A stretch of 20,804 nt of DNA from a virus, in IMG/VR virus record IMGVR_UViG_3300035183_000942, positions 1-20,804 of that record; one strand, written 5' to 3'. Both the position numbers and the translations under genes were made by a program. Numbering within the stretch: position 1 is the first letter of the stretch; the number at the start of each line of letters is the position of its first letter. The notes beneath the pieces were generated by a model. That model made no database searches. It saw nothing but the letters and a program-made list of their open reading frames with translations, and was not told the origin of the DNA. Positions 13,897 to 19,911 of the stretch are shown here, in pieces.

Positions 13897-14082
13897 TCAC
13901 TCGATCGGCTGCCGCGTGACCCACCGCAGCACGACGTTCGCCACCCCGAGCAGCGCCGGAGCCAGGTACAGCGTGACCCCGTCCCGCGTGAACCCGGCCT
14001 GCGCCCACGCCCCCAGGGCCGTCACGACCGCGCCCACGTTGGTCCAGACCGTCTTGCTCTGATACCAGCGCTTGGCGTCCAT
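13897..14082 (-). CDS. Small two-helix membrane protein, holin-like, 61 aa
   Basis: The N-terminus MDAKRWYQSKTVWTNVGAVV is a form I recognise from small phage membrane proteins often annotated as holin-like. Two hydrophobic segments follow (about 14-30 and 37-54) separated by a short charged turn (FTRDG), with a basic/polar C-terminus (RWVTRQPIE). This is a small class II holin-type topology; lysis function is not shown. The ATG at 14082 is preferred because GGGGAGG sits 6 nt upstream. A GTG at 14088 would overlap that signal. It is the first gene of the leftward operon, and its TGA is followed in frame by a long open stretch leading into the terminase gene. Confidence 0.7.
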   Translation of the reverse strand: MDAKRWYQSKTVWTNVGAVVTALGAWAQAGFTRDGVTLYLAPALLGVANVVLRWVTRQPIE

Positions 14083-14123
14083 GGCCACCCTCCCCGGGGC
14101 CCCCAGGCCCGCTCGGCGTCAGA

Positions 14124-14150
14124 CTCGTACAGCTCGCCGCCATGGGTCAA
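14124..14150 (-). promoter_or_regulatory. Weak candidate promoter for the leftward late operon
   Basis: Read on the minus strand, TTGACC (14150-14145) and TACGAG (14129-14124) are separated by 15 bp, about 40 bp before the first gene of the late operon. Only the -35 box is good and the spacing is short. A phage-encoded polymerase or an activator may be needed instead. Confidence 0.2.
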
Positions 14151-14179
14151 GCAGAAAGTGACCGGCAGGGGACCCGGGC

Positions 14180-14240
14180 AGACGCGCGGAGGGCGCCGAG
14201 AGGACACGCGGGGCCTCGGGAGGACGCGCGGGGGGACCGG
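14180..14240. repeat. Three tandem units of about 20 bp
   Basis: Units at 14180-14200, 14201-14220 and 14221-14240 share an AGGACRCGCGGGG core (AGACGCGCGGAGGG in the first). They lie about 100 bp upstream of the first late gene. Confidence 0.6.
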
Positions 14241-14300
14241 CCGGGCCCTTCCGCCGGGGCCTGGGCCCCGGGGGTCCCAGCAACCGGGCAGCCCCCCCGC

Positions 14301-14348
14301 TTGTGAACGTGCTCACATTCACAGCCTTGTGAACGTGTTCACATTCAC
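14301..14348. promoter_or_regulatory. Two direct copies of a TGTGA-N6-TCACA palindrome
   Basis: Two 22-bp copies, starting at 14301 and 14327 (26-bp period), differ at one base. Each contains an exact TGTGA-N6-TCACA (14302-14317 and 14328-14343), the consensus form of CRP/Vfr-type sites, followed by TTCAC. The second has the fuller symmetry TGTGAA/TTCACA. They lie upstream of the leftward operon and are probably operators for a host CRP-family regulator or a phage repressor with similar specificity. Confidence 0.65.
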
Positions 14349-14364
14349 GAGCGACCCCCAACAT

Positions 14365-14660
14365 CTTGTGGTCCGGCCGCCAGCCACCACAACCGGTGGT
14401 GGTCGAGGCGCCGATGGGCCCAAGCCCTTGTGGCCCCACCCGTTGTGGTCCCGGGAGGCGGTGACCACAACCCGTGGTGGTCCAACCCCTAGGGGTCCGG
14501 CGGGCTGGTTGCCCCTACCCCTGGTGGCCCAGCGGCTGTGGGGCTCGAGCCCTGGTGGGCTACGGGCCGGCGACCCCAACCCCTGGTGGCCCAATCCCTC
14601 GCGGCCCCATCCCTGGTGGTCCGGCGGCCGCATGACCCCTACCCGTTGTGGTCCGGCGCC
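14365..14660. repeat. Degenerate GTGG-rich repeat block with internal inverted repeats
   Basis: At least eight imperfect units share a core such as CCCTGGTGGCCC, CCGTTGTGGTCC or CCCGTGGTGGTCC, spaced about 23-45 bp apart. Several are inverted repeats themselves, for example CCACCAC and GTGGTGG flanking AACCG (around 14384-14402), and GACCAC/GTGGTC (around 14463-14482). The translations are repetitive Gly/Trp/Pro strings, so this is not coding. Confidence 0.6.
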
Positions 14661-14990
14661 GCTGGCGGCTCGAGGCGAGGCCCGGCGCCGGCCGCCCTGG
14701 CGTCCCAGCCCTGGCCATGGGCGCCGTGGGGCGCGGGCTGAGCGCCCTGCCGCCCTGCCGCCGCCGTGCCGGCCCGCGTGCGGGCCCGGGGCCGGGCCGT
14801 GGGCTGTGGCTCGGGCCCAGCCACCTCGGGCTCGGGTAGGCGCGGGCCCGGGCCTCGGGCCTCGGGCTCGGAGCCTGACTAGGGCGGAGTCGGCACCGTG
14901 AGGCGCGCGGGGCCGAGCGCTCCCTTCCTTTCTTCTAAGAGGGGGAGGCGCGGCGCGCGGCGCCCGGCCCGGAGCCCGGCGCGCGAGCGG

Positions 14991-15110
14991 CTCGAGGCGC
15001 CCGGCGGGGCCTGACCCCTCGAGGCTGCGACTCGAGGCCGGCGCCGTCGAGGCCTCGAGCCCGGACGCGCCGCCGGCCGGAGTCCGCGGCCGAGGCCCGG
15101 CGCCGGGCTC
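14991..15110. repeat. CTCGAG cluster and GC-rich inverted repeat
   Basis: CTCGAG occurs at 14991, 15018, 15031 and 15054 (also at 14544 and 14669), mostly as CTCGAGGC. GAGCCCGG (15057-15064) and CCGGGCTC (15103-15110) form an 8-bp inverted repeat that extends by three pairs past a bulged A. The function is unknown. Confidence 0.5.
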
Positions 15111-16273: not shown

Positions 16274-16289
16274 GCAAGGGAGGAACACC

Positions 16290-16916
16290 ATGAGCACGCG
16301 ATTCCGGGAAGTGGTGAACACGCGCTTCGGCGGCCGGCTGTCAGCCGGCTACCACGAGCCAGGCTCCGGTAAAGCGTCCGCGCATGAGGCCGCGGCCGCC
16401 GCGCGAGGTCTACCGTGGTCCGATAGCCCATGGGCCGCAGGGCTGCCTGACCTGCAGCCCCTCAATGACGGCCCCTGGTCATCGGATGAGGCGAGGACTG
16501 CCGCCCTGGTTCCCGTCGTCGAGGCGCTCTGGGACTGGCTGCACTGGCCGTCTAGCCGACAGCGGGCCTGGTCCCACGAGGTCGTGCTCCGGACGGTGAG
16601 AGAGGTCGTGTCGCGGTGCGCGTGGGCGCACGGCGCCCCAGAGGCGGCCGACGCCTGCGCAGGCGCCGCCACGATCGACGACGCCCGCGCCGCCGCCGGG
16701 TGGCTCGTCAGCGACCTGGCCTACCTGGCGCGCACCGGGCCTCTCCACGAGATGGCGCGGTCAGCCCACTTGGCCGCCTCGATCCAGCACGAGGCGGCAG
16801 CGGCGGCAGCGGCCTATGCCGCTCGCGCGTGGGCCGAGCTCGGCAAGCCCGATGCGGCCGACGAGGCGCTCCGCACGGCCTGCCGCATCTGGCGCGAGGC
16901 GGCCCTGTCGCAGTAG
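16290..16916 (+). CDS. FGGRLSAG-family phage protein, copy 1 (208 aa), unknown function
   Basis: The protein is a paralog of the one at 19192-19911. Shared blocks are RFGGRLSAGYH (12-22), ARGLPWSDSPWAAGLPDLQPLNDGPWSSDEART (about 38-70), ALWDWLHWPSSRQRAW, VLRTVREV, and the C-terminal AARAWAELGKPDAADEALRTACRIWREAA. The middle and end are Ala-rich (HEAAAAAAAYAARAW). I recognise this arrangement (FGGR-S-G-H-P, then DLxPLNDxPWSSD, then an Ala-rich helical region ending in CxIWxEA) from proteins of unknown function in other phages. No catalytic motif is evident. The ATG at 16290 is preceded by AAGGGAGG, 7 nt away. The same leader (AAGGGAGGAAC) precedes the second copy. Confidence 0.8.
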   Translation: MSTRFREVVNTRFGGRLSAGYHEPGSGKASAHEAAAAARGLPWSDSPWAAGLPDLQPLNDGPWSSDEARTAALVPVVEALWDWLHWPSSRQRAWSHEVVLRTVREVVSRCAWAHGAPEAADACAGAATIDDARAAAGWLVSDLAYLARTGPLHEMARSAHLAASIQHEAAAAAAAYAARAWAELGKPDAADEALRTACRIWREAALSQ

Positions 16917-18375: not shown

Positions 18376-18388
18376 GAGGAGACGCGCC

Positions 18389-19195
18389 ATGCCGTACACC
18401 ATCCGAGTCCCTGCTAGCGATCTCCGGCACGCGTGGGCGATGGTCGCGGGCGCCGCGTCCCGCGATGCGGATCGGCCGCACCTCGCCGCCGTGCGGCTCA
18501 GCCTTGCCGGGCTGGGCCATGACTACCCGACGCTCCGGCTTCTGGCCACGGACGGGTATGAGCTCCGATGGGCCGACGTCGTGTCCGCCGACCGACGCGA
18601 CGACGCGACGCCCGCCGAGCCTCCGCCGCCCCTCGCCGTCCCGGCCGACGCTCTCGAAAACGGGCCCCGTGGTCGGCACGCCCTGGTCGGACTGGCCTGG
18701 CCCACCAACGGTGGGCCCGCCCGCATCGCCGATGCCGACGTGACGCTCGTCGAGGGGTTCCCGGAAATTGACCGGCTCATCCCTGACGCAGCGCCCAACG
18801 CAGCCCTGGTGGTCCCGGCGCGCGAGTGGATCGCCGGGTTGCGCGCCGCCGCCGCCGCATCCGGAGCCCATGCCATCACTATCCGGGCCCGGGCCGGCGC
18901 GACGGCGGCGTTCTTCCGCGCCGCCGATTCGCGCAGCCGGCTCGCCGCCGTGGTCCGCGTCCCCCTAGATGCGCCGGCGCCGCGCGACGTCGCCGTCCGC
19001 GTCGATGCCCAGCGGCTCGCGCGGCTCAGCGCCGCCGTCGCGGGCTCCGCGCGCTACCTGTGGATCGCCGTCGAGGCGCCGCGGCGCCCGCTGACGGTGC
19101 TCCCGGCGCGCTCCGCTTCGGCGCCGCACTTGACGCATGGCGCGGTGGTCATGCCCTGCGCGCCTGTCGCATGGCAGAAGGGAGGAACGCCATGA
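18389..19195 (+). CDS. Reduced DNA polymerase sliding clamp (DnaN-like), 268 aa
   Basis: Sliding clamps encircle DNA and tether polymerases. Features of bacterial DnaN can be seen: LAAVRLSLAG...TLRLLATDGYELRWADV (32-64), the counterpart of the first-domain LxLxATDxExxxxxxV; VEGFPEIDRLIPDA...ALVVPAREWIAGLRAAAAAS (121-158), like the FPxxxxllP and following helix of domain 2; DVAVRVDAQRLARLSAAV (200-217); and the C-terminal HLTHGAVVMPCAPV (247-260), like the DnaN ending YVVMPMRL. The protein is about 100 residues shorter than cellular DnaN (about 366), so one domain may be missing or condensed. The ATG at 18389 has GAGAGGAG 7 nt upstream. The stop overlaps the next ATG by four bases (ATGA). Similarity is judged by eye, and the shorter form is unusual. 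Confidence 0.7.
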   Translation: MPYTIRVPASDLRHAWAMVAGAASRDADRPHLAAVRLSLAGLGHDYPTLRLLATDGYELRWADVVSADRRDDATPAEPPPPLAVPADALENGPRGRHALVGLAWPTNGGPARIADADVTLVEGFPEIDRLIPDAAPNAALVVPAREWIAGLRAAAAASGAHAITIRARAGATAAFFRAADSRSRLAAVVRVPLDAPAPRDVAVRVDAQRLARLSAAVAGSARYLWIAVEAPRRPLTVLPARSASAPHLTHGAVVMPCAPVAWQKGGTP

Positions 19196-19911
19196 CGACA
19201 GTCCCGTCGGTTCCTGTCGAGCAATTCCGTCACGTCTTGCAGGAGCGGTTCGGCGGCCGGCTCTCCGCTGGCTGCCACCGCCCAGACGATGGCGTAGCAT
19301 GCGCCCTCGAAGCCGCCGCGGTAGCCCGCGGGCTGCCGTGGACGGACAATCCGTCGGCCGTCGGGCTGCCGGACCTGCGGCCGCTCAATGACGGGCCGTG
19401 GTCGAGCGATACTGCGCGGACGGAGGCACTCGTCTCTGTCGCCGAGGCCCTGTGGGATTGGGCGGAGTGGACTAAGGCCCAGCGGCGGGCCTGGTGCGAG
19501 ACGGTTGCCCTCCGGACGGTCCGAGAGCTCTTGCCCGACCTCCTGCGCGCGTTCGGCCTGCCGGAGCACGCTGCTGCGTGCGCGGCCGCGGGCACGCTCC
19601 CTGACGCCCGCGCCGCTGCCTGGGCGGCGGTGAGCGGACTGTCTCAGCGGTCGTCGGGTCACGCGTGGCCAGTCCTGGAATCGGCCCGGACGGCCGAGCA
19701 AGCCGTTGCGACGTGGTGGTCGCCCGCGCCGGCGGCCCGCGCGGCTTGTCATGCGGCCCGCGCGTGGGCCGAGCTCGGCCTGTGCGACGCAGCCGAAGAG
19801 ACGCTACAGCAGGCCTGCCGCATCTGGCGCGAGGCGGCCCGCGACTCGGCCAGCCTGGCGTATGCCATGCACAGGCTGACGCACGCCAGTCAGCCGGAAC
19901 CGAGAGGATGA
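19192..19911 (+). CDS. FGGRLSAG-family phage protein, copy 2 (239 aa), unknown function
   Basis: The protein is a diverged paralog of the one at 16290-16916. It shares RFGGRLSAGCH (19-29), ARGLPWTDNPSAVGLPDLRPLNDGPWSSDTARTEAL, ALWDWAEWTKAQRRAW, ALRTVRELLP and ARAWAELGLCDAAEETLQQACRIWREAA. It has a longer N-terminus and about 20 extra C-terminal residues. The middle segments have diverged most, while the blocks above are nearly the same, so those residues probably carry the function. Even the ribosome binding leader (AAGGGAGGAAC) is shared, which points to a gene duplication including the leader. The ATG at 19192 overlaps the clamp stop (ATGA), so the two proteins are made together. No known catalytic motif is present. 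Confidence 0.8.
   Translation: MTTVPSVPVEQFRHVLQERFGGRLSAGCHRPDDGVACALEAAAVARGLPWTDNPSAVGLPDLRPLNDGPWSSDTARTEALVSVAEALWDWAEWTKAQRRAWCETVALRTVRELLPDLLRAFGLPEHAAACAAAGTLPDARAAAWAAVSGLSQRSSGHAWPVLESARTAEQAVATWWSPAPAARAACHAARAWAELGLCDAAEETLQQACRIWREAARDSASLAYAMHRLTHASQPEPRG

Follow-up and report, generated by a model that had tools for sequence, protein, structure and literature searches.

The usual description of sliding clamps is of rings with six domains, to which a few viral clamps are exceptions. In DnaN, the bacterial beta clamp, each subunit has three clamp domains, and the ring is built so that domain 3 of one subunit contacts domain 1 of the other. The trimer clamps T4 gp45 and PCNA have two clamp domains per subunit and are acidic overall. 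Two-domain subunits form six-domain rings in eukaryotes and in some phages, and viruses that lack loaders have clamps with much positive charge that do not form rings and bind directly to DNA, UL42 as a monomer and UL44 as a dimer (PMC9690074). Here we describe a 268-aa protein, called the clamp protein below, that resembles DnaN without its domain 1. It is encoded in a virus record from IMG/VR, a linear stretch of 20.8 kb that we call the window.

The clamp gene and its setting

The clamp gene is an uninterrupted open frame of 268 codons, and the features that we assigned in and around it are listed in Table 1. Its codon-position GC (0.80/0.61/0.85) is similar to that of the neighbouring genes, as is that of one antisense frame, in a window where GC per kilobase ranges from 69 to 76%. 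The clamp gene is a real gene. Its stop codon (TGA, 19193-19195) overlaps the start of the following gene (ATG at 19192) as ATGA. The left two thirds of the window are a minus-strand structural module with the terminase large subunit, a podovirus-type portal (head-tail adaptor) and the major head protein, and the right end carries small genes of unknown function, all in one plus-strand run. Between the structural module and the small genes, positions 14100-14900 are very GC-rich (76% over 14001-15000) and apparently gene-poor. A PADLOC search gave no match. Three IMG/VR contigs from different metagenome records (L042, L043 and L048) show an identical pattern of matches to the terminase, portal and capsid genes of the window; these are apparently the same phage or a near-identical sister of it.

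Table 1. Positions of the clamp gene, its parts and the neighbouring FGGRLSAG-family genes in the window.
Feature	Position	Strand	Basis
DnaN-like clamp without domain 1, 268 aa	18389..19195	+	PHROG 947 match, alignment A9, model, VIA-align
Domain 2, about residues 1-134; domain 3, about 137-259; tail, 260-268	18389..19195	+	alignment and model
Shine-Dalgarno-like AGGAG, 7 bases 5' of the ATG at 18389	18377..18381	+	sequence
R29-L32, corresponding to E. coli R152-L155 of subsite I; R152 and L155 kept, Y153 to P, Y154 to H	18473..18484	+	A9
A53-L59 (ATDGYEL), corresponding to E. coli A171-L177, domain 2 motif lining subsite I	18545..18565	+	A9
P125-P132 (PEIDRLIP), corresponding to E. coli P242-P249; pocket P242 and R246 kept, V247 to L	18761..18784	+	A9
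V253-P256 (VVMP), corresponding to E. coli V360-P363, pocket floor	19145..19156	+	A9
FGGRLSAG-family protein, 239 aa, start overlapping the clamp stop (ATGA)	19192..19911	+	sequence, phmmer
Second FGGRLSAG-family paralogue, 209 aa, away from the clamp gene	16287..16916	+	phmmer, FGG2 against FGG1, E 1.5e-63

The two FGGRLSAG paralogues share the motif order FGGxLSAG ... LPDLRPLNDGPWSSD ... CRIW. The family is undescribed, and searches with both proteins against Pfam, PHROG and PADLOC gave no significant match. Relatives occur in contigs of different phages with high and low GC, and their C-terminal halves are alanine-rich and variable. In total, five other viral contigs carry the family, some of them clearly from different phages and at least one AT-richer. 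No clamp was found in these five contigs or in the contigs that share the capsid gene; all are partial records, in which an empty answer counts for little. An earlier note on this DNA had given the 268-aa frame and the ATGA overlap correctly, and had suggested from the overlap that the two proteins function jointly. Since no clamp was found in the partial records that carry the FGGRLSAG gene elsewhere, the overlap is better seen as ordinary gene packing than as evidence of a joint function, and the second copy in the window is not coupled to the clamp gene at all.

We found no polymerase gene in the window, which is an incomplete record. Two of the five contigs with an FGGRLSAG gene carry a family A DNA polymerase, as does one relative that shares the capsid gene of the window phage, so it is plausible that the window phage has such an enzyme outside the window. 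The earlier note had proposed a search beyond the window for a phage polymerase with a clamp-binding motif. No Pol III alpha was found in the related viral records. In 3300011445_000018 and 3300012179_000016, the FGGRLSAG-family gene lies within a few kilobases of the family A polymerase gene.

Homology to DnaN and predicted structure

The clamp protein matches PHROG 947 (DNA polymerase processivity factor, the phage DnaN family) with an E-value of 2.6e-9, its residues 7-241 aligning with positions 130-352 of 368. When the sequence was reversed the best E-value was 0.88, and four composition-preserving shuffles matched nothing; the alanine-rich composition is therefore not the source of the match. 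A profile of ten DnaNs that we built also detects the protein (hmmsearch, E 3.2e-7), and an hhalign comparison to the 10 DnaNs gives a probability of 95.6 (E 1.2e-8) over domain 2. The ten-DnaN profile found nothing comparable in related contigs. By contrast, the match to TIGR00663 is weak (residues 4-59 to positions 126-176, with 11.1 bits against a cut-off of 137.65), and no Pfam model matches. On these sequence comparisons, the clamp protein is a distant homologue of DnaN.

A first large MAFFT alignment (A7) was dropped because domain 3 was misaligned. The selected alignment (A9), with subsets of rows chosen by motif register, places the protein in register with 14 DnaN domain 2-3 segments from the first strand through VVMP. 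The protein is very divergent (16-24% identity), and 43/225 positions overall are identical to E. coli. As aligned, the protein lacks domain 1, and its start codon lies at the boundary of domain 2. Upstream of the gene, none of the frames showed a remnant of domain 1, and the gene is thus not a frameshifted full-length dnaN. With domains 2 and 3 only, the protein has two clamp domains per subunit, as PCNA and gp45 do, instead of the three of DnaN. Searches with peptide patterns in viral and genome contigs, and with tblastn in phages, turned up no close relative.

We predicted the structure of the monomer with AlphaFold, using the 14 DnaN rows (pLDDT 80.2, pTM 0.81). In Foldseek and VIA-align, model residues 1-259 superpose on E. 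coli beta 123-366 with Z of 21-24 and rmsd of 2.6-3.6. The DnaN rows bias this model, which supports the fold but is no independent proof of it. From the single sequence, AlphaFold gave an uninformative model (pLDDT 34.5), in which the predicted secondary structure of domain 3 still fits. The model made with the DnaN rows shows the complete strand-helix pattern of a clamp domain in domain 3, with all strands predicted. Domain 2 lacks its second inner helix, and residues 86-98 are unstructured (pLDDT about 67). The protein is predicted to have the domain 2-3 clamp fold.

In both Foldseek libraries the best rows are DnaN. Below the DnaNs, the viral list has PCNAs and also phage clamps of two-domain size; examples are a 238-aa protein of Gordonia phage Horus and a 217-aa protein of Bacillus phage Sam46, both publicly annotated as Pol III beta-type clamps. 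Because these clamp-annotated proteins are already in public data, the two-domain-size architecture is probably not unique.

The earlier note had described a shortened DnaN with both ends recognisable. Its DnaN similarity, its VVMP C-terminal end and its two domains hold up in the PHROG 947 match, A9 and the model. The N-terminal end is absent: in the register of PHROG 947, TIGR00663 and A9, ATDGYELRW, which had been taken for it, corresponds to ATDGHRL, a motif of domain 2 (E. coli 171-177; the nonapeptide spans 171-179). The note had proposed profile comparisons and a structure prediction as checks; of these, the DnaN profiles gave the matches to PHROG 947 and in hhalign, with a weak match to TIGR00663 and none in Pfam, and the monomer prediction gave the clamp fold under the guidance of the DnaN rows.

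The clamp-binding-motif pocket and the subunit interface

We compared the clamp-binding-motif pocket with E. coli DnaN using the residue list of PMC11139829. Subsite I, where the hydrophobic end of the motif is bound, is identical at 9/12 positions (R152, L155, T172, G174, L177, P242, R246, V360 and M362), and the changes are H175 to Y, R176 to E and V247 to L. This is significantly more than the 43/225 identical overall (p 2e-5). Pocket columns are not kept significantly more often than other family-invariant columns (9/16 vs 9/21, p 0.3). As those other columns are kept almost as often, the signal is one of joint retention of the domain core and the pocket. The polar subsite II is mostly lost, with 2/8 positions kept (M362 and P363) and H175, N320, Y323, V344, M364 and R365 altered; the substitutions include N320D, Y323R, M364C and R365A.

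Alanine substitution of I272 and L273, in the domain 3 interface, makes beta monomeric (PMC3022782). The clamp protein has alanine at both corresponding positions, which may be due to chance in a protein with 23% alanine.

Short DnaN-like proteins in other phages

Searching phage records with E. coli DnaN (tblastn) also found proteins of 178-224 aa in enterobacterial, Vibrio and Pseudomonas phages, and a Paracoccus phage query added gp31 of Burkholderia phage BcepC6B. The annotations of these short proteins read Pol III beta, RusA-like resolvase or hypothetical. Four were tested, and all belong to PHROG 3007, with strong matches. In the alignment the short proteins carry domain 2 and the latter half of domain 3, and lack domain 1 and the first half of domain 3; a later alignment, with E. 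coli DnaN alone, places this last stretch differently. Several PHROG 3007 proteins, among them L024:2983-3519, L026:2935-3489, L027:2944-3522 and L222:2447-3049, match DnaN domain 2 (PHROG 947, E-values of 1e-7 to 7e-15), and one alignment shows them ending in the pocket strand VVMPMR. Judging by these alignments, PHROG 3007 proteins are apparently ring-less mini-clamps with neutral-to-basic charge, and the label of RusA-like Holliday junction resolvase is likely an annotation error. In BcepC6B (L222), the frame 5' of the annotated start of gp31 encodes the conserved DnaN domain 2 stretch AQQDIRYYLNG. The annotated start at 2534 is probably too late, and the true start would be at about 2447.

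In BcepC6B the PHROG 3007 gene comes after the DNA polymerase gene, and in Serratia phage Eta it precedes the helicase gene, with a primase nearby. A family A polymerase match was found in 3/9 phages with domain-1-less proteins (one of them below the cut-off) vs 0/8 phages with full-length DnaN, an association that is suggestive only. Across these 17 phages (9 domain-1-less and 8 full-length DnaN) we found no recognisable clamp loader.

The clamp protein matches neither the PHROG 3007 profile, at E-values up to 10, nor PHROG 3007 proteins in BLAST. It shares with the family, which is present in coliphage, Salmonella, Klebsiella, Vibrio and Pseudomonas phages as well as BcepC6B, the absence of domain 1, the presence of domain 2 and of the C-terminal pocket strand, and a neutral-to-basic charge. 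The clamp protein has the first half of domain 3, unlike PHROG 3007 as aligned, whereas PHROG 3007 keeps more of the pocket.

Charge reversal

The clamp protein has a pI of 10.1 and a net charge of +5 at pH 7. In comparison, 160 full-length DnaNs have pI 4.6-5.9 (4.6-6.3 for their domains 2-3 alone) and nine annotated phage DnaNs have pI 4.4-6.5, so that all 169 full-length DnaNs are acidic (pI 4.4-6.5). Fourteen sampled domain-1-less phage proteins, including the clamp protein, range from 6.8 to 10.1 and do not overlap with the full-length set. The difference from the phage DnaNs is significant (n=14 vs n=9, Mann-Whitney p 4e-5), though the other 13 domain-1-less proteins are one family and the charge shift counts as about two lineages. 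The inner helices of the clamp protein have a formal charge of +4, at the top of the DnaN range. Outside the inner helices the formal charge is +1, vs -6 to -14 in the 14 DnaN rows. The GC-rich genome could account for part of the high pI, although the neighbours of the clamp protein in the window are mostly acidic or near neutral; three others are basic. In the literature that we searched we found no description of a charge reversal tied to the loss of domain 1; one may nevertheless exist.

Discussion

The closest described relative of the clamp protein is DnaN (PHROG 947, TIGR00663), with which it shares the predicted domain 2-3 fold, the motifs ATDG, FP..R.IP and VVMP, and subsite I. It differs in lacking domain 1, in being basic instead of acidic, in having lost most of subsite II, and in falling far under the TIGR00663 cut-off with no match in Pfam. 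T4 gp45 and PCNA resemble it in their number of domains, but its sequence motifs are those of DnaN and Foldseek puts DnaN above PCNA. The herpesvirus proteins UL42, a monomer, and UL44, a C-shaped dimer, have in common with it their positive charge and the direct DNA binding, free of ring and loader (PMC9690074), that we propose here. The likeness to UL42 and UL44 is a working analogy only, with no sequence relation shown.

Each interface of a DnaN ring joins domain 3 to the domain 1 of the partner, and without domain 1 a dimer ring of the DnaN type would therefore be impossible. Either domain 2 would replace domain 1 in that contact, giving a trimer, or there would be no ring. We tentatively favour a factor derived from DnaN that serves processivity or tethering and makes its own contact with DNA, perhaps as a ring-free protein in the manner of UL42 and UL44; we hold this as the leading possibility, short of a probable one. 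The clamp protein would act as a monomer or an open assembly and would lie on DNA by way of its basic inner helices, lacking the acidic outer surface that DnaNs usually have. The retained pocket may tether a polymerase or another replication protein, and the host clamp loader would not be needed. The polymerase served could be a phage family A enzyme or the host Pol III. Three features lean towards the absence of a ring, each of them weakly: the missing helix of domain 2, the alanines at 272/273 and the lost acidic outer surface. The position of PHROG 3007 genes next to replication genes in BcepC6B and Serratia phage Eta is consistent with a tethering role. Against it we count the lack of a close relative, the loss of most of subsite II, and a pocket that is not conserved above other invariant columns.

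A two-domain clamp could instead close as a head-to-tail homotrimer of six domains, like PCNA or T4 gp45, and be loaded by the host loader for a phage or host polymerase. We consider this somewhat unlikely, but it is a strong rival of the tethering factor. Both clamp domains are predicted to be complete except for one helix, the inner helices are basic, other two-domain subunits do form six-domain rings (PMC9690074), and viral PCNAs and the Horus and Sam46 clamps are found in the Foldseek lists below the DnaNs. However, the missing second inner helix (residues 86-98) sits in the half that would need to contact domain 3 of the neighbour, and at the domain 3 interface the hydrophobic pair is replaced by Ala-Ala. 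In addition, the acidic outer surface of all DnaN rows is lost, and a loader gene was not found in the 17 phages examined; the window is a partial record.

Less probable again, and in our view improbable, is a decoy or dominant-negative clamp that captures, away from DNA, the clamp-binding motifs of host replication or repair proteins and in this way starves the host replisome or redirects it. The kept hydrophobic subsite I would suit a decoy, and PHROG 3007 as aligned retains the parts that make up the pocket, in domain 2 and the C-terminal half of domain 3, but not the rest of domain 3. In addition, full I272A-L273A beta could not be cloned and a monomeric clamp with a working cleft was suggested to be dominant negative in vivo (PMC3022782). 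Subsite II, however, holds the conserved glutamine of the motif and is mostly changed, the strong positive charge and basic inner helices point to DNA and not to a soluble decoy, and the related short proteins sit in replication modules. Finally, it is very improbable that the protein is what is left of a full-length DnaN in decay, or a clamp fold put to an unrelated use as a scaffold: it is very divergent, absent from the other records searched and only partly conserved in the pocket, but its frame is unbroken and has a ribosome-binding site and a clean start at the domain 2 boundary, with no domain 1 remnant upstream and every domain 3 strand predicted.

Coming back to the tethering factor, it may be one case of a wider change. 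From the DnaN ring, which is acidic and depends on a loader, phages may at least twice have derived a basic, ring-free polymerase clamp without domain 1, once in the clamp protein (domains 2 and 3) and once in PHROG 3007 (domain 2 and the C-terminal half of domain 3), giving a DnaN-derived counterpart of herpesvirus UL42 and UL44. We regard this broader proposal as speculative and, taken as a whole, rather unlikely.

A DnaN relative that lacks the ring domain and has its charge reversed, with a parallel in PHROG 3007, suggests that bacterial clamps can become loader-free tethering factors. PHROG 3007 itself is an unstudied and probably misnamed family, and the 'RusA' annotations in many enterophage genomes would then need correction.
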